From assembly GCA_005778035.1 (NCBI GenBank), contig SXKT01000047.1, positions 1 through 33,063 on the forward strand: 33,063 nucleotides of DNA, given 5' to 3'. The stretch is from Chloroflexota bacterium (GTDB lineage Bacteria > Chloroflexota > Anaerolineae > Anaerolineales > Villigracilaceae). The position numbers and the translations under genes were made by a program. Shown piece by piece: positions 1,437 through 24,369 of the stretch. A model generated the notes under the pieces. It had not been told where the DNA came from. It did not search any database and worked only from the letters and a program-made list of their open reading frames with translations. How positions within the stretch are numbered: position 1 is the stretch's first letter; the number at the start of each line of letters is the position of its first letter.

Positions 1437-2349
1437 ATGGAAAGCTGCCCCAAAAAAACTCCTGGACAAAGTGCGTGAATCCATCCGAGTCAAACATTTC
1501 GCCCGCAATACCGAACAAGCTTACGTTTACTGGATCAAAAAAAAATATCCTCTTCCATAATAAACGCCATCCCAAAGAAATGGGTAACGGTGAAGTTCAG
1601 GCATTCCTACTAACCCACCTGGCTTTAGATAAGCATATTTCGGCTACTACACAAAACCAGGCACTTAGCGCGTTGCCTTTCCTGTACCGCAATGTCCTAA
1701 GCCAGGAGCTTGGTTCAGTCGACTCGGCATGCGTCTGATGGAGTGTATCCGTTTACGTGTGAAAGATTTGGATTTTGAGTATCGCCAGATTGCCGTGCGT
1801 GATGCCAAAGGCGCGCACGACCGTTATCCACTTCTGCCCGCCAGCCTGGTGGAGCCAATAAAAGGTCATTTGACTCAATTAAGAAGGACTCACGCAGAGG
1901 ATCTGTCCAAAGCATATGGTGTCGTTTATCTACTATTTGCACTGGTTGAGAAATACCCCAACGCCAATCGGGAATGGACCTGGCAGTATGTTTTTTCTTC
2001 TCATTCGTTATCAACGGATGAACAGGATGGCATTATTCGTCGTTTTCATGTGAGTGAAGCCGGGCTGCAAAAAGCCGTCAAGGCGGCGGTGAAGAAAGCG
2101 GGTATTCCTAAAAAAGTTGGCTGTCATACCTTCCGGCACTGCTTTGCTACCCACCTGCTTGAAGCGGGCTATGATATCCGCACCGTTCAAGAACTTCTCG
2201 GTCACAAGGATGTCAAAACCACTATGATCTACACAACCGTGCATAACCGCGGCCCAAACACCGTGCGCAGTCAGTTAGATGAATATTTTCCTTGTAAAAA
2301 AAAAGCGCCCTCCGAAAATGGAGAGCGCTTGATGACGCAGCTAATTTGA
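1437..2349 (+). pseudogene. Integron-integrase-like tyrosine recombinase (IntI/XerC family), frameshifted and internally deleted
   Basis: Pieces read KLLDKVRESIRVKHFARNTEQAYVYWIKK / ILFHNKRHPKEMGNGEVQAFL / [17 protein letters not shown]...[12 protein letters not shown]...[37 protein letters not shown]. Frame breaks at A7 (near 1455) and A9 (near 1540); about 40-45 aa missing between [11 protein letters not shown] and GMRLMEC. Confidence 0.85.
2296..2330 (-). terminator. Rho-independent terminator for the minus-strand mevalonate operon
   Basis: Minus strand AAGCGCTCTCC-ATTTTC-GGAGGGCGCTT followed by a run of 9 T; lies just after the DUF35 stop at 2352. Confidence 0.8.
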
Positions 2350-2823: not shown

Positions 2824-3987
2824 TCAACTTTCCATTTTTGAGAGAATGTGGCTAACACAAGTGGAGCCAGGGCCACCAATCCCTTGGATCATCGCGTGAG
2901 TCGCGCCTGGCACCTGGTTGGCTTTGGCATCACCCCTCAATTGAAGTACTGCCTCTACCGCCTGATAGATACCGGTTGCGCCGCCAGCAAAACCACGTGC
3001 CTTGTTGCCGCCAAAAGTAGCACAAGGTAACCTTCCACCAACACCGATCTCATCCTCAAGCGCCATTTTCCAGGCTTGTCCGCGTTCGCAAAAACCGGTA
3101 GCCTCCAAAGCCAATGCTGCAAATATGCCAAATTGGTCATCATACTCAAACAAATTGATCTGTCCGGGCCGTAAGCCTGCCTGGTCAAACGCTTTCTGGG
3201 CACACCTCGCCACCGAACGGAATTCCAGAACATCGACGCGGTCGTGCAAGGACAGGGTATCGGTGGATAGCGCGCTGGCGCTCACTTTAACTGGTTGAGC
3301 GGAGCCTTTATAAAGGGAGGAACGGGTAAGTACTATGGCCGCTGCCCCATCCACAAAGGGGGCAATATCAAACATATTCAATGGCTCGCTCACCATTTCA
3401 GCCTTGAGGTAGGTATCTGCCTTGATCGCTTTTTGGAACATTGCGTTCGGGTTCCCTGCCCCGTTTTTGTGCGCGTTGAGCGCAAACCCGGCGAAAGCGC
3501 TCCTTTCCGCCTTGTATTGCATCAGGTACCTTTGCATAAGCATGGCCGCCTGGCTGGTAGTCGTCAGACCTTGCATTGCCTCAAAATCACCATCCATATT
3601 GGTAGCCAAAGCAGATTCCAACTCGCCGCCGGCTTTATCGGTGAACTTCTCCACACCCAGCGCAATGGCGCAATCGACCAAGCCGCTTTTAACCGCCAAA
3701 ACTGCTTGCCTAATCGCAGCCCCGCCAGAAGCTCCGCCCGCCTCTACTGTTGCCGCCTCTATGCCCACCAGGTCTGCCCGGTCAGCGATCAGGGTTGCCA
3801 GGTGTGCCTGGTTGGATATATTCATTGAAAGCATGTTGCCAACAAACAGCGCTTGTGGTTCAGGGTTGCCGGCGTTTTGCAATGCCAAGCGAACAGCCTT
3901 CGCGCCCATCTCCCGCAGGGAACTATCCCAATGTTCCCCCGCGGGTATCTGCCCAACACCTGTGATCAGGATCTCTTCCATAATCAA
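2824..3987 (-). CDS. Thiolase-fold protein (archaeal acetoacetyl-CoA thiolase / SCP-x-like) lacking canonical catalytic residues
   Basis: Full-length thiolase architecture, but VEAGGASGG where VEAACASGG is expected, EYDDQF where VHDCF is expected, and GFAGGATG where GHPxGATG is expected. Start may be 3981. Confidence 0.85.
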   Translation of the reverse strand: MIMEEILITGVGQIPAGEHWDSSLREMGAKAVRLALQNAGNPEPQALFVGNMLSMNISNQAHLATLIADRADLVGIEAATVEAGGASGGAAIRQAVLAVKSGLVDCAIALGVEKFTDKAGGELESALATNMDGDFEAMQGLTTTSQAAMLMQRYLMQYKAERSAFAGFALNAHKNGAGNPNAMFQKAIKADTYLKAEMVSEPLNMFDIAPFVDGAAAIVLTRSSLYKGSAQPVKVSASALSTDTLSLHDRVDVLEFRSVARCAQKAFDQAGLRPGQINLFEYDDQFGIFAALALEATGFCERGQAWKMALEDEIGVGGRLPCATFGGNKARGFAGGATGIYQAVEAVLQLRGDAKANQVPGATHAMIQGIGGPGSTCVSHILSKMES

Positions 3988-4000
3988 TTCACTTTGCCGA

Positions 4001-5068
4001 TCATTTCATTGCCAACTTGCCGCGGTAGCGAACATAGGTTGCGTAATCGATCTCAGTTCGGCGGGCAATATATTCGCCTGTTTTTTTGGCCAAATTTCTG
4101 CGCTCACTGATCTTGTCTGTTACTTCAATATCAAATGCGTCGGACCCGGCACCGGACCCAAAAGAAACCATCAGAATCCGGTCACCCGGCTCGGCAATAT
4201 CCAACACACCCGTCAGCCCGATCATCGCCGCGCCAGCATACGTATTGCCGATCACCGGCACCAGTAATCCGGGTTGGATCTGTTCAAGGCTAAAGCCAAG
4301 TTGGCCGGCTACTTTTTGCGGGAACTTGGTGTTCGGTTGATGGAAAACCGCCCATTTATAATCTTTGGCAGTAGTGCCAATAGAATGCATCAAAGTGGTC
4401 GCTGCCTCGCTGATATGCTTAAAGTAGGCAGGTTCGCCGGTAAAGCGCATTCCGTGTTCCGGGTACTTTTGGTATTCCCGTCGCCAAAAATCAGGGGTGT
4501 CGGTCACAAAGGAGTATGTAGCGTTGACCCTGGCCAAAGAATCCTCAGCCGGTCCAACAATATAAGCAGCGCCACCCGCTCCGGCGGTGTATTCCAGCGC
4601 GTCGCCCGGTTTCCCTTGGGCGGTATCCATACCAATGGCCAAAGCATATTTGCCCATGCCACTGCCGACCAAGCCCATCGCCGCCACGAATGCCTCTGTG
4701 CCAGCCTTGCACGCAAATTCCCAATCGGCCGCCTGCGTGTGTGGCACCGCGCCGATCGCCTCGGCGACCAGGGTAGATGTTGGTTTCACCGCGTAAGGGT
4801 GCGATTCTGAGCCTACCCAAACCGCGCGAATGTCTTGCGGAGAAATGCACGCCCTTGCCAAAGCATTACGGGCTGCCTCGATCGACATAGTTACTACATC
4901 TTCGTCCAAGCCCGGCACAGATTTTTCTTTGATCGGCAATCCGCCCTTGCCACCCGTCCAAACCCTGGCTACTTCTTTTGCCGCCAGCCGATATCGGGGC
5001 ACATAAGAACCATACCCAATGATTCCAACGGGTTTATCGGGGGTCATGTGCAGTTGTTGTTCGCTCAT
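4001..5068 (-). CDS. Hydroxymethylglutaryl-CoA synthase (archaeal-type)
   Basis: [28 protein letters not shown] (Glu); [10 protein letters not shown] (Cys); [10 protein letters not shown] (His); GNTYAGA. Confidence 0.92.
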
Positions 5069-5075
5069 CTGTCCT

Positions 5076-6374
5076 CTATTCCTTGGCGCCCAGGTTTCTG
5101 AGCTCCCAAATAAGTTTTTCAGCCAGATCTACCCGAATGGCTTTTTGTTCCACCATGCGGGCAGAGATCACATCTACTTCGTCACTATTTGCGCCAGCCG
5201 CAATGGCCACCTGCCGGGCGTGCAAACCCATATGTCCTTTTTGAATACCCTCGGTCGCCAAAGCGCGGATGGCTGCCAAATTTTGGGCCAAGCCAACCGA
5301 AACGATCACCTCTGCCAATTCTGTTGCCGTTCTTACTCCCATCAATTTGATGGCAGCCTTGGCTGCGGGGTGCACTTTGGTTGCCCCGCCAATCGTCCCT
5401 ACTGCCATTGGGATCTCCAACTCTCCCATCAGGTCGCCAGCATCATTCTTCCACCATTTGCTCAGGCTGGTATAGCTGCCGTTTCGCGCGGCAAATGCAT
5501 GAGCGCCTGCTTCAATCGCCCGCCAATCATTACCGGTTGCCATCACAACCGCGTCGATCCCATTCATGATCCCCTTGTTGTGGGTGGCCGCGCGGTATGG
5601 GTCTACAGCCGCAAAGGCATATGCGGCAATAATGCCATCACGCACCTCTTCACCGCTATACCCATCAAATGCCAATTCACTTGCCGGGATCCTGCAAGAG
5701 GCGGTTGTTACCCGTCGATCTGCCAGGTTGCTTAGGATCTTTAGATGAACCTTCCCGCCGGTAGCCTGCTCAATTTCTGGGGCTAATTTTTCGCAGGCTG
5801 TATTCACCGCGTTGGCTCCCATCGCGTCGCGCACGTCGTAGATCAGGTGCAATACCAAAAAGGGACCCACCGGTGATTGATCGAACCGGCGTATGATCAA
5901 ATCTCTTGCGCCACCACCAAATTTTTTCAGGATGGGGTCGATCCCATCGGCCATTTCGATCAATTGCGATTTGCGCAAGTTAACATTCGTGATCGCCTGT
6001 TCCATATCGGCGATGTTTAATACCTGAATTTGGCCGATCATTTCTGGTGGGGTGCTTTTTGCGGTGAAACCACCCGTAGACCGGGCAAGTTTTGCCATAA
6101 AGGACGCCCCAGCCACCACACTCGGTTCTTCCAAAACCATCGGAACCAGCACGTCTCGGCCATTGACCTGAAAATTAAGCCCAATACCCACTGGCAGGCT
6201 GTGTAGGCCGATCACATTTTCGATCATGTGGTCGGCATTCTCGTAGGTCAGCCCGCCATTATCCCAAGCGAGCATATCCTGCTGGTTTAGGTCGGTTTGT
6301 TGTTGTAAGGCCGCGAGTTTTTGTTCTTTGGGTAATTTAAAAAATCCCGCAATACGTGAATTTGCCATTTTCAT
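5076..6374 (-). CDS. mvaA: Hydroxymethylglutaryl-CoA reductase, class II (degradative-type)
   Basis: [52 protein letters not shown]: catalytic Glu, Lys, Asp and His motifs present. Confidence 0.92.
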
Positions 6375-20707: not shown

Positions 20708-22471
20708 TTATTGTGGCTGATATTCAGGGCAGACTTCCTCTTCCAATAGCCCTTGTACATGCAGTACTTCATGGGCTTTATGGCTACCTGCCTCTCCCAA
20801 AAAGCTTGTATATAATTCCTGAACCGACGGGTTCAGGTGCGATTTCCGTATCGTTGTTCCCCGGTCCAAATGATACAAACCGCGTACCCGTTGCTCAATG
20901 ATCTCGTCCCGTTCTTCCGAATAGGGTTGCCCGCCGCCATTTACACAGCCACCGGGGCATGCCATGATCTCAATGATGTCGAATTTTTCTTCACCGCTCT
21001 CGATCTTCTCCAATACCTTTCGGGTATTCCCCAACCCCGATACGGCAGCTACGCGCACCGTCCTGCCTTCCAGATCGATCTCAGTCTCGCGGATGCCTGC
21101 CAACCCACGTACAGCGGTAAAGTTCACATCCACCAACTCCTTGCCGGTCACTTTTTCATACACAGTCCGCAGGGCTGCTTCCAGAACTCCGCCAGTGCCA
21201 CCAAAGATCACCCCTGCCCCTGTACTGCGGCCAAGCGGGTCATCAAACTCCTCATCCGGCAAATGGCGCAGGTCCATGCTGCCTTCCTTGATCATTTTTG
21301 CCAGTTCGCGTGTGGTTAGCACCAGGTCCACATCCCTAATACCATAGGTCTGTTCCGCGGGCAAGGCGGCTTCGTATTTTTTTGCGATACAAGGCATTAC
21401 CGAGACCACCACAACATCTTGCGGATCGTACCCCATTTTTTGGGCATAATACGTCTTGATCACTGCGCCGGTCATTTGCTGCGGGCTTTTACAAGTGGAT
21501 GCCATATAGTCCAAATTCGGGAAATGGTACTTGAGGAAGTTGATCCAGCCTGGGCAGCACGAGGTCAGGATCGGCAAATGCTCTTTGCGTTCCAAGCGCT
21601 CTACGATCTCCTTGCCTTCTTCCACCACTGTCAGGTCCGCGCCAAAGGTTGTATCAAACACGGCGTCAAAGCCCAAGCGGCGCAAGGCCGCCACCATTTT
21701 TCCCGTCACAGGTTGGCCTGGCGGCATTCCAAATTCCTCACCAATGGCTACCCTAACCGCCGGAGCTACCTGAACGATCACCTTCTTTTTGGGGTTGAAC
21801 AAGGCTGCCCATGTGTCTTGAATATAACCGACACCGGTAAGCGCCGCGGTAGGGCAAACACTTACGCATTGCCCGCAATACACACAATTGCTTTCAGCCA
21901 ACGGCATTTTCTCTGCGGGGGTTACCACGGTGTGGAACCCGCGGCCAAAAGCGGTTAGCGCTCCTACGGTCTGAACAGTGTTGCACATGGTCTCGCAACG
22001 ACGACACATGATGCACTTGTTAGGATCCCGTTTGAGCGCGGAACTGGTCTTGTCGATCGGGTGGCTGGAGCGTTCACCGGTATACCGCTGGGTGTTGATG
22101 CCAAACTCCCAAACCAGTTTTTGCAACTCGCAATCGGTAGATTTGGCGCAAACAAGACACTCAAATGGATGGTTCGAAATGATCAATTCCAAATTCTTGC
22201 GCCGAGATGCCAAGACCCGCTTGCTGTTGGTGGTCACTTTCATCCCCTCAAAAACCGGGGTAGCGCAAGATGGAGCCAGATTATGTTTGCCTTCAACTTC
22301 CACTACGCATATGCGGCAACTGGCCACTTGGTTTAAATATTTCGATTTTTCCAATTTTAGGTAGCACAAAGTCGGAATATCGAGATGCACCTTTTGGGCT
22401 GCTTCCAGGATGGTTGTCCCTTCAGGGACGCTTACGTGGTTTCCATCGATGGTGAGGTTGATCATATCCAT
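20708..22471 (-). CDS. hydA: [FeFe]-hydrogenase catalytic subunit (HydA/HndD-like, trimeric NAD-linked type)
   Basis: H-cluster motifs TSCCPGW, MPCIAKKYE, EIMACPGGCVNGGGQP; N-terminal 2Fe-2S, His-Cys3 and 2x4Fe-4S domains. Confidence 0.96.
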   Translation of the reverse strand: MDMINLTIDGNHVSVPEGTTILEAAQKVHLDIPTLCYLKLEKSKYLNQVASCRICVVEVEGKHNLAPSCATPVFEGMKVTTNSKRVLASRRKNLELIISNHPFECLVCAKSTDCELQKLVWEFGINTQRYTGERSSHPIDKTSSALKRDPNKCIMCRRCETMCNTVQTVGALTAFGRGFHTVVTPAEKMPLAESNCVYCGQCVSVCPTAALTGVGYIQDTWAALFNPKKKVIVQVAPAVRVAIGEEFGMPPGQPVTGKMVAALRRLGFDAVFDTTFGADLTVVEEGKEIVERLERKEHLPILTSCCPGWINFLKYHFPNLDYMASTCKSPQQMTGAVIKTYYAQKMGYDPQDVVVVSVMPCIAKKYEAALPAEQTYGIRDVDLVLTTRELAKMIKEGSMDLRHLPDEEFDDPLGRSTGAGVIFGGTGGVLEAALRTVYEKVTGKELVDVNFTAVRGLAGIRETEIDLEGRTVRVAAVSGLGNTRKVLEKIESGEEKFDIIEIMACPGGCVNGGGQPYSEERDEIIEQRVRGLYHLDRGTTIRKSHLNPSVQELYTSFLGEAGSHKAHEVLHVQGLLEEEVCPEYQPQ

Positions 22472-22476
22472 ACTCC

Positions 22477-24369
22477 TTAGTTTCTCGATACCGCGGCAAA
22501 TTTACAACGGCTTAGGCATGCACCGCATTTTATACAACGTGCTTGGTCGATCAAGTGCACTTGTTTGACAGACCCGGAAATACAACCGACCGGGCAACCC
22601 CTTGCGCAAGATGTACAACCGATACATTTTTCAGCAATGATCTCGTAGTGCATCAGTTTTTGGCAGGTGCCGGCCGGGCAATGCTTCTCAAACACATGGG
22701 CTTCATATTCAGCCATAAAGTACTTCATCGTACTTAGCACCGGGTTTGGCGCAGTTTGGCCAAGACCACATAGCGAGGTATCCATGATCGTTTCTGCCAG
22801 GCTGCGCAACTCATGCAAGTCCATGGCTGTTCCACGGCCTTCGGTGATGTTGGTCAGAATCTCGAACATGCGTTTATTGCCAATTCGGCAAGGCGCGCAA
22901 CGGCCGCAAGATTCTTCAACGATGAATTCGAGATAGAACCTGGCCAAGTTCACCATGCAATCCTGGTCACTCATAATGATCATGCCACCTGACCCCATCA
23001 TCGAACCGATCGCTGATAGCGATTCGTAATCAATAGGCGTATCGAGGTACTGCTCTGGGATACACCCGCCCGATGGGCCGCCGGTTTGCGCAGCTTTAAA
23101 TTTAGCGCCGCCTTTGATGCCACCGCCAATGTCGTAGATGATCTCCCGCAAGGTAGTGCCCATTGGCACTTCCACCAACCCTACATTATTGATCTTGCCT
23201 GCCAAGGCGAAAACCTTGGTACCTTTGCTGGTTTCGGTACCGATGCTACTGAACCAATCGGCGCCTTTTTGGTAAACCACCGGCACATTGGCCAGGGTTT
23301 CCACATTATTCACGGAAGTTGGCTTTCCCCATAAACCACTCTCCGCCGGGAAAGGCGGCTTGGTACCAGGCTCGCCCCTCAGCCCTTGCAAGGAGTGGAT
23401 CAATGCGGTCTCTTCACCGCAAACAAACGCGCCGGCTCCCAATCTGATCGATATATCAAAATTGAATCCGGAACCCAATATATTCTTCCCTAACAAACCC
23501 GCGGCTCTCGCCTGGTCAATAGCGATCTGTAATCTTGATACAGCCAATGGGTACTCCGCCCGTATATACACGTATCCTTGGGTTGCCCCAATTGCGTACC
23601 CAGCAATGGCCATGCCTTCCAATACGCTGTGGCTATCCCCTTCCATGATCGATCGATCCATAAAAGCGCCGGGGTCGCCTTCATCGGCATTGCAGATGAT
23701 GAATTTTTCCTCACTGGTGCTTTTGCTGGCATATTCCCATTTACGGCCGGTCGAAAATCCCGCCCCTCCTCGGCCTCGCAAGCCAGACTTTTTCATTTCC
23801 TCGATCACTTCCTTGGGCGACATTCCACCGACAACCTTCGCCAAGGATTGGTACCCTCCGGTTGCAAGATATTCTTCGATCTTTTCAGGGTTGATCAAGC
23901 CACAATTGCGCAAAGCAACCCGTTGTTGCAGTTTGTAAAAAGAGATGTCATCGGCGGACTCGATCTTTTGTTTAAGTTTTGGGTCCTCGTAGAGCAATCG
24001 CCGCACTTTTTCGCCATTGAGAATATGCGAATCAAAGATCTCGGGAACATCGGCTACCTTTACTGAAACGTAGAAGACATTTTCCGGATAAATTTTGATG
24101 ATCGGACCTTTTTCACAAAAGCCAAAACAGCCGCTTATGGATGCGGATATCCTTTCATCCATTCCGTTTTCCTTGATCAAGCGCTTGAACTCATGGACGA
24201 TCTGCTTGCTTTCCGACGCCTGGCACCCTGTGCCTCCACAAACCAGGATCATTCGCTCTTGTGGGCCACCTCTTTTTCCTGATCGCAGGTCCAATAAGCT
24301 CTTTGTTTCTTCGTACGCATCCAATAATTGGATCGGGCTTGTGATCTCAAGCATGGGAAACCTCCTCAA
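22477..24369 (-). CDS. hydB: NuoF-like hydrogenase subunit (HydB/HndC-like)
   Basis: KSGLRGRGGAGFSTGRKW, NADEGDPGAFMDRS, GAGAFVCGEETALIHSLQG, CGRCAPCRIG; C-terminal 2x[4Fe-4S] ferredoxin domain. Start may be 24354. Confidence 0.95.
   Translation of the reverse strand: MRRFPMLEITSPIQLLDAYEETKSLLDLRSGKRGGPQERMILVCGGTGCQASESKQIVHEFKRLIKENGMDERISASISGCFGFCEKGPIIKIYPENVFYVSVKVADVPEIFDSHILNGEKVRRLLYEDPKLKQKIESADDISFYKLQQRVALRNCGLINPEKIEEYLATGGYQSLAKVVGGMSPKEVIEEMKKSGLRGRGGAGFSTGRKWEYASKSTSEEKFIICNADEGDPGAFMDRSIMEGDSHSVLEGMAIAGYAIGATQGYVYIRAEYPLAVSRLQIAIDQARAAGLLGKNILGSGFNFDISIRLGAGAFVCGEETALIHSLQGLRGEPGTKPPFPAESGLWGKPTSVNNVETLANVPVVYQKGADWFSSIGTETSKGTKVFALAGKINNVGLVEVPMGTTLREIIYDIGGGIKGGAKFKAAQTGGPSGGCIPEQYLDTPIDYESLSAIGSMMGSGGMIIMSDQDCMVNLARFYLEFIVEESCGRCAPCRIGNKRMFEILTNITEGRGTAMDLHELRSLAETIMDTSLCGLGQTAPNPVLSTMKYFMAEYEAHVFEKHCPAGTCQKLMHYEIIAEKCIGCTSCARGCPVGCISGSVKQVHLIDQARCIKCGACLSRCKFAAVSRN

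Follow-up and report, generated by a model that had tools for sequence, protein, structure and literature searches.

A conserved thiolase-fold protein without catalytic Cys in the mevalonate operon of Chloroflexota, a probable non-catalytic partner of HMG-CoA synthase

Several protein assemblies combine a thiolase, an HMG-CoA synthase (HMGS) or HMGS-like protein and a DUF35 protein. In the archaeal complex from M. thermolithotrophicus (6ESQ/6ET9; described in PMC6392133 and PMC12329534), CoA is bound at an interface formed by all three proteins (PMC6392133). PhlABC likewise consists of HMGS-like, thiolase and DUF35 subunits, of which the HMGS-like one, PhlA, has neither Cys nor Glu; the substrate is contacted by the active thiolase subunit only, but the whole complex is still required (PMC6392133). 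In the aldolases Ltp2 and Sal, which have a DUF35 partner and share the thiolase fold, as does TbSLP, a catalytic Tyr takes the place of the His of the HDCF motif, and the third motif residue is His in Ltp2 and an essential Cys in Sal (PMC12329534). MucABC, like PhlABC a multicomponent acyltransferase, was seen here as a fold match only. A thiolase-like protein from Sulfolobus tokodaii, ST0096 (4YZO), is also Cys-less, with VDNTSGSGG placing Ser at the nucleophile column, but retains the HD and GHP His residues and is only ~25% identical to the protein described below.

That protein is encoded on the reverse strand of a 33,063-nt contig from a Chloroflexota bacterium (SXKT01000047.1; Anaerolineae, Villigracilaceae), referred to in its entirety as the window, within the following operon:

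5076 to 6374, reverse strand: HMG-CoA reductase (HMGR; class II, TIGR00532), the operon's first gene; Pfam PF00368 E 4e-110, TIGR00532 above cut-off
4001 to 5068, reverse strand: HMGS, archaeal type; TIGR00748 544.7 bits against a cut-off of 353; catalytic motifs present
2824 to 3987, reverse strand: pseudo-thiolase of PRK06064/PF22691 type, without the Cys, HD-His and GHP-His; open frame of 387 codons
2352 to 2759, reverse strand: DUF35 protein (zinc ribbon and OB fold, PF12172/PF01796), the operon's last gene
2303 to 2330, reverse strand: terminator-like hairpin of 11 pairs followed by a T run, directly after the DUF35 gene; from a consensus scan that overall gave about as many hits in the region as expected by chance

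The operon likely ends at this hairpin, and the thiolase gene, judged by eye, probably starts at ATG 3981 rather than TTG 3987. The first-pass annotation of this DNA had described the operon as not decaying, with HMGS and HMGR intact, and this holds, since both proteins score above curated equivalog cut-offs; the catalytic Cys and Glu of HMGS can both be read from its translation (FACKAGTEA, GSESHPYAV). The DUF35 protein is the sole PF01796 match in the window's assembly, and several genomes have a single DUF35 gene, sited in the HMGS operon. The order HMGR-HMGS-thiolase-DUF35 is kept across families, and the thiolase gene is encoded together with an archaeal-type HMGS and a DUF35 protein, the gene set expected of a thiolase/HMGS/DUF35 complex. 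A fusion of HMGS and thiolase genes, sought among the loci compared as a sign of such a complex, was not found; the single fusion joins HMGR and HMGS in one 793-codon frame (L158:5681-8059, coordinates of the reverse-oriented locus).

Elsewhere in the window, a tyrosine recombinase is spread over two forward-strand frames next to the operon (1475-2349; SAM-like N-terminal domain at 1475-1738, catalytic part at 1729-2349), and is probably a frameshifted, integron-like integrase. On the reverse strand, positions 20708-24369 hold genes for an [FeFe]-hydrogenase and a NuoF-like subunit, as in electron-bifurcating hydrogenases.

The closest solved relative of the pseudo-thiolase, both by sequence (~39%) and by Foldseek E-value, is the P. 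furiosus thiolase PFC_04095 (7YVY), in which, unlike the window protein, the Cys, HD and GHP motifs are intact (EAACASGG, FFEVHDAF, GHPVGATG). Motif columns were set by alignment to this sequence and to 6esq (EAACASGS, EVHDCF, GHALGATG), ungapped at all three motifs, and gave these codons:

3733 to 3735, reverse strand: Gly85, at the column of the nucleophilic Cys
3139 to 3141, reverse strand: Asp283, at the column of the HD-motif His; FEYDDQF matches FEVHDAF without a gap
2989 to 2991, reverse strand: Phe333, at the column of the GHP His

The Gly and Phe replacements given in the first-pass annotation are therefore at the columns claimed for them. Its broader statement, that all recognisable thiolase catalytic residues are lost, stands for the Cys, HD-His and GHP-His but misnames the residue replacing the HD-His: this is Asp283, and the Tyr proposed for the position is residue 282 (codon 3142-3144), one residue early, at the Val/Leu column just before the His. 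None of the residues that define an archaeal-type acetoacetyl-CoA thiolase (ACAT; Cys of VEAACASGG, His of HDAF/HDCF, His of GHPxGATG) is present in the window protein, and it scores below the cut-offs of the curated ACAT models (306.7 of 600 bits for NF053570, 361.4 of 420 for NF004720), as it does for every thiolase model listed.

These losses are not a peculiarity of one contig. The comparison covered 110 homologues encoded in operons of the window's family and its near relatives; those with a name are Chloroflexota/Anaerolineae, except one labelled only "bacterium". At the nucleophile column 109 of them have Gly and one has Glu, and all 110 have lost the GHP His, with F, N, Y or D in its place. 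The Cys and GHP-His losses are thus clade-wide and not local decay. The HD-His column behaves differently, with His in 100 of the 110 sequences and Tyr in four, and the HD Asp is invariant. Residue 282 is Tyr in 105 sequences and is a conserved feature of the group, not a substitute for His; in Cys-less families beyond it, the column is mostly Leu.

The register of this Tyr matters because the first-pass comparison with Ltp2-type aldolases depended on its lying at the His column. With Asp there in the window protein and His in most orthologues, that suggestion loses its main argument. A more general form of it, in which the protein has been repurposed for other acyl-CoA chemistry tied to HMG-CoA metabolism (retro-aldol, decarboxylation or thioester hydrolysis), has some points in its favor: Sal, also paired with a DUF35 protein, has Gly at the Cys position as the window protein does (PMC12329534), Tyr282 and Cys322 (104/110) hardly vary within the window's group, and the HD His and Asp are widely kept. 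It nevertheless appears unlikely. The window motif is DDQF where the aldolases have YDHF (Ltp2) or YDCY (Sal), so that the base Tyr is absent from its column and the third residue is Gln285 instead of His or Cys. The Cys-less families as a whole share no polar catalytic set (residue 85 is G, D, Q, S, A or E, and 282 and 322 vary, the latter being Ile, Val or Leu outside the window's group), and the gene stays with HMGS and HMGR rather than with a steroid hydratase.

A wider survey of 74 genomes (Anaerolineae and Chloroflexia) found a Cys-less operonic thiolase in 42. Elsewhere in the order and class, the Cys column of the operonic thiolase is occupied by G, D, Q, S, A or E in about half of the genomes, and in the remainder the Cys is intact, nearly always together with both His residues. 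Three sampled Chloroflexota families outside the class, presumably Chloroflexia to judge from where the mevalonate pathway occurs, are all Cys-less. Some individual sequences depart from the common patterns. Five operonic thiolases (L154, L156, L137, L164 and L175) lack the Cys alone, replaced by A, D or G, and keep both His residues, as if Cys loss came first, and one (L144) has the reverse pattern, with Cys kept and the GHP His changed to Asn. In L179-L185, which are HMGS-linked, Cys-less and from outside the class, an ELSDPHG-like sequence replaces the HD motif, and in most of them the classical CxGG position has a Cys (CLGG), possibly a displaced one. A separate, standalone thiolase-like clade (L218, L219, L223, L225, L230 and L231; SH-aLRT 100) has Thr at the nucleophile position (e.g., RAATATGA) with HD and GHP His intact, and a group of paralogues 34-38% identical (L234, L235, L251, L252 and L282) has Pro there (VENGPASGG), also with intact His motifs.

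The history of the loss depends on which gene is followed. The thiolase tree requires seven changes of Cys state, but a topology that unites every Cys-less operonic thiolase in one clade is not rejected (AU p 0.755) and in fact has the better score; long branches in this tree may be attracting one another. For HMGS, joining the Cys-less operons in one clade is rejected (AU p 0.0014). Because the two trees disagree, repeated loss of the Cys cannot be distinguished from exchange of the thiolase gene inside the operon, and both are possible. In family f2, the operon slot is occupied by an intact thiolase that groups with standalone copies (SH-aLRT 99), and the order is DUF35-thiolase.

The Cys-less gene evolves much as its neighbors do. 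Median dN/dS in close pairs is 0.104 for the pseudo-thiolase, 0.086 for HMGS, 0.093 for DUF35 and 0.116 for HMGR; like HMGS, it is under purifying selection. Residue losses cluster in the active site. The positions conserved in intact relatives but kept in fewer than 20% of Cys-less proteins are 85 (the Cys), 143, 147, 333 (the GHP His), 335 and 369 (which corresponds by motif to the CxGG Cys of classical thiolases); all are motif positions except 143 and 147, which lie in a helix starting at 143. Of the remaining conserved positions, most are kept at frequencies above 85-90%, with E18, Q60, E113, D132, E136, R153, Y154, H173, D207, D213, E281, D284 and E295 kept in 100%. The predicted model of the window protein (pLDDT 94.0, pTM 0.94, replacing an earlier one from 30 sequences with pLDDT 75.8) has a complete thiolase fold, and its best TM match in Foldseek is 6esq_A, the thiolase of the archaeal HMGS complex (TM 0.96, rmsd 1.6).

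Within this conserved group, the window protein is the fastest-evolving member, with a branch of 0.91 against a median of 0.25, and what marks it out is its HD-His loss, common to few others, together with a general rate acceleration. This raises the question of whether it is losing function altogether in its lineage. Its mean identity is 58% (75% for the group), it differs at 13 sites that orthologues conserve (median of the others, 1), and it has lost the HD-His too, while the window's HMGS and DUF35 have no such changes. Decay is very unlikely all the same, since the frame is intact, the fold is confidently predicted and the operon is complete, another member (L097) reaches a similar change count, and the core residue loss is clade-wide and conserved. 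The fast rate could mean that even a structural constraint is weakening in the window's lineage, or that partner contacts are shifting.

If the operonic protein makes no acetoacetyl-CoA, another enzyme should. DXR, of the MEP route, was found in none of 31 genomes and mevalonate kinase in all 31, so mevalonate is probably the sole isoprenoid route and acetoacetyl-CoA is needed. The first-pass annotation had called for a search for a second, catalytically intact thiolase, and the window's assembly, although only 64% complete, has one of archaeal type (L002; VESACSSG, LHDAF, GHPVGATG), encoded away from the operon among unrelated genes, as well as two PF02803 thiolases. At least one classical (PF02803) thiolase is present in all 42 Cys-less genomes of the 74-genome sample, though these may serve beta-oxidation alone. 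In that sample, eight genomes lack PF02803, and the operonic thiolase of each is intact (Fisher p 7e-4), an association counted over genomes and descriptive only, as phylogenetic control leaves just 1-4 independent pairs. Ten genomes of a further family (f13) also lack PF02803 and have a Cys-less operonic copy, but all ten encode a separate archaeal-type copy with Cys (HD and GHP His were also seen in nine; one copy ends at a contig edge), so any rule that another thiolase accompanies the loss must count archaeal-type copies too. No genome relying on the Cys-less protein alone was found among those examined.

The constant presence of another thiolase also bears on whether the operonic protein could still be an acetoacetyl-CoA thiolase, with a displaced nucleophile or without a covalent intermediate. 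Its position in the operon would fit, as would Cys322, which in the window's group lies close to the GHP loop, and the Cys that several other Cys-less families have at 369. The Cys-less set as a whole shares no conserved Cys, however, and PhlC activity is abolished by changing Cys88 to Ala or Ser (PMC6392133); together with the other thiolases in every genome examined, this leaves residual thiolase activity highly improbable.

The intact copies could alternatively act within the complex, with the pseudo-thiolase as a non-catalytic subunit docking an intact paralogue to DUF35 and HMGS so that channelling is kept. Ketosynthases provide a precedent in their chain-length-factor-like non-catalytic subunits. 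Nearly all genomes of the window's family have intact archaeal-type copies, one locus (L115, 6549 bp) encodes HMGS, pseudo-thiolase, DUF35 and intact thiolase consecutively in one operon, and several genomes have no DUF35 gene other than that of the HMGS operon. Such a heteromer is improbable as a general arrangement, given that many Cys-less genomes (families f9, f10 and f15, and Chloroflexia) have no second intact archaeal-type copy and that L002 is encoded elsewhere.

The reading that best fits the whole, with a probability of roughly 0.65, is that the protein is a conserved pseudoenzyme, a structural partner of HMGS and DUF35 that would help to form the CoA site, while acetoacetyl-CoA would be produced in trans. 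The first of the two interpretations offered originally, a non-catalytic partner in an HMGS/DUF35 complex with acetoacetyl-CoA coming from elsewhere, is supported in both parts: by residue loss that is conserved clade-wide while the rest of the protein is conserved, and by the intact L002 and the additional thiolases of all Cys-less genomes examined. Mechanistically, the protein would be unable to form an acetyl-cysteine intermediate but would keep the thiolase fold and, presumably, its contacts with DUF35 and HMGS; it would most likely be an obligate structural partner helping to form the CoA site of an active HMGS, supplied with acetoacetyl-CoA by a standalone archaeal-type thiolase (L002 here), a classical PF02803 thiolase, or both. 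The parallel with the M. thermolithotrophicus complex lies in the same three genes, the archaeal-type HMGS and the thiolase fold; the difference is a thiolase subunit without equivalents of the Cys85, HD-His and GHP-His, in an assembly represented here by genes and a monomer model. PhlABC offers a parallel of another kind, one thiolase-fold subunit being without catalytic residues yet required (PMC6392133), with the roles reversed: there the HMGS-like subunit is dead and the thiolase active. A broader proposal, that the thiolase in much of Anaerolineae and Chloroflexia has become an obligate non-catalytic subunit completing the HMGS CoA site, turning the archaeal channelling complex into a two-site design fed with acetoacetyl-CoA from outside, is more tentative, and somewhat short of an even chance.

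Searches of the literature, mostly outside subscription journals, found no previous description of an HMGS-linked thiolase without the Cys in Chloroflexota; relative to that literature, the thiolase/HMGS/DUF35 architecture is known and the conserved dead thiolase within it is new. Since the Cys-less genes resemble thiolases, match thiolase models and would pass as the first enzyme of the pathway, reconstructions of isoprenoid synthesis in a large group of bacteria would probably name the wrong gene. If the preferred reading is true, this is a pseudo-thiolase in central metabolism, the mirror image of PhlABC. It would separate two roles of the thiolase, synthesis of acetoacetyl-CoA and completion of the HMGS assembly, of which these bacteria appear to retain only the second, and would allow a direct test of whether HMGS needs its partner or channelling, in which intact relatives of the operon could serve as natural controls.
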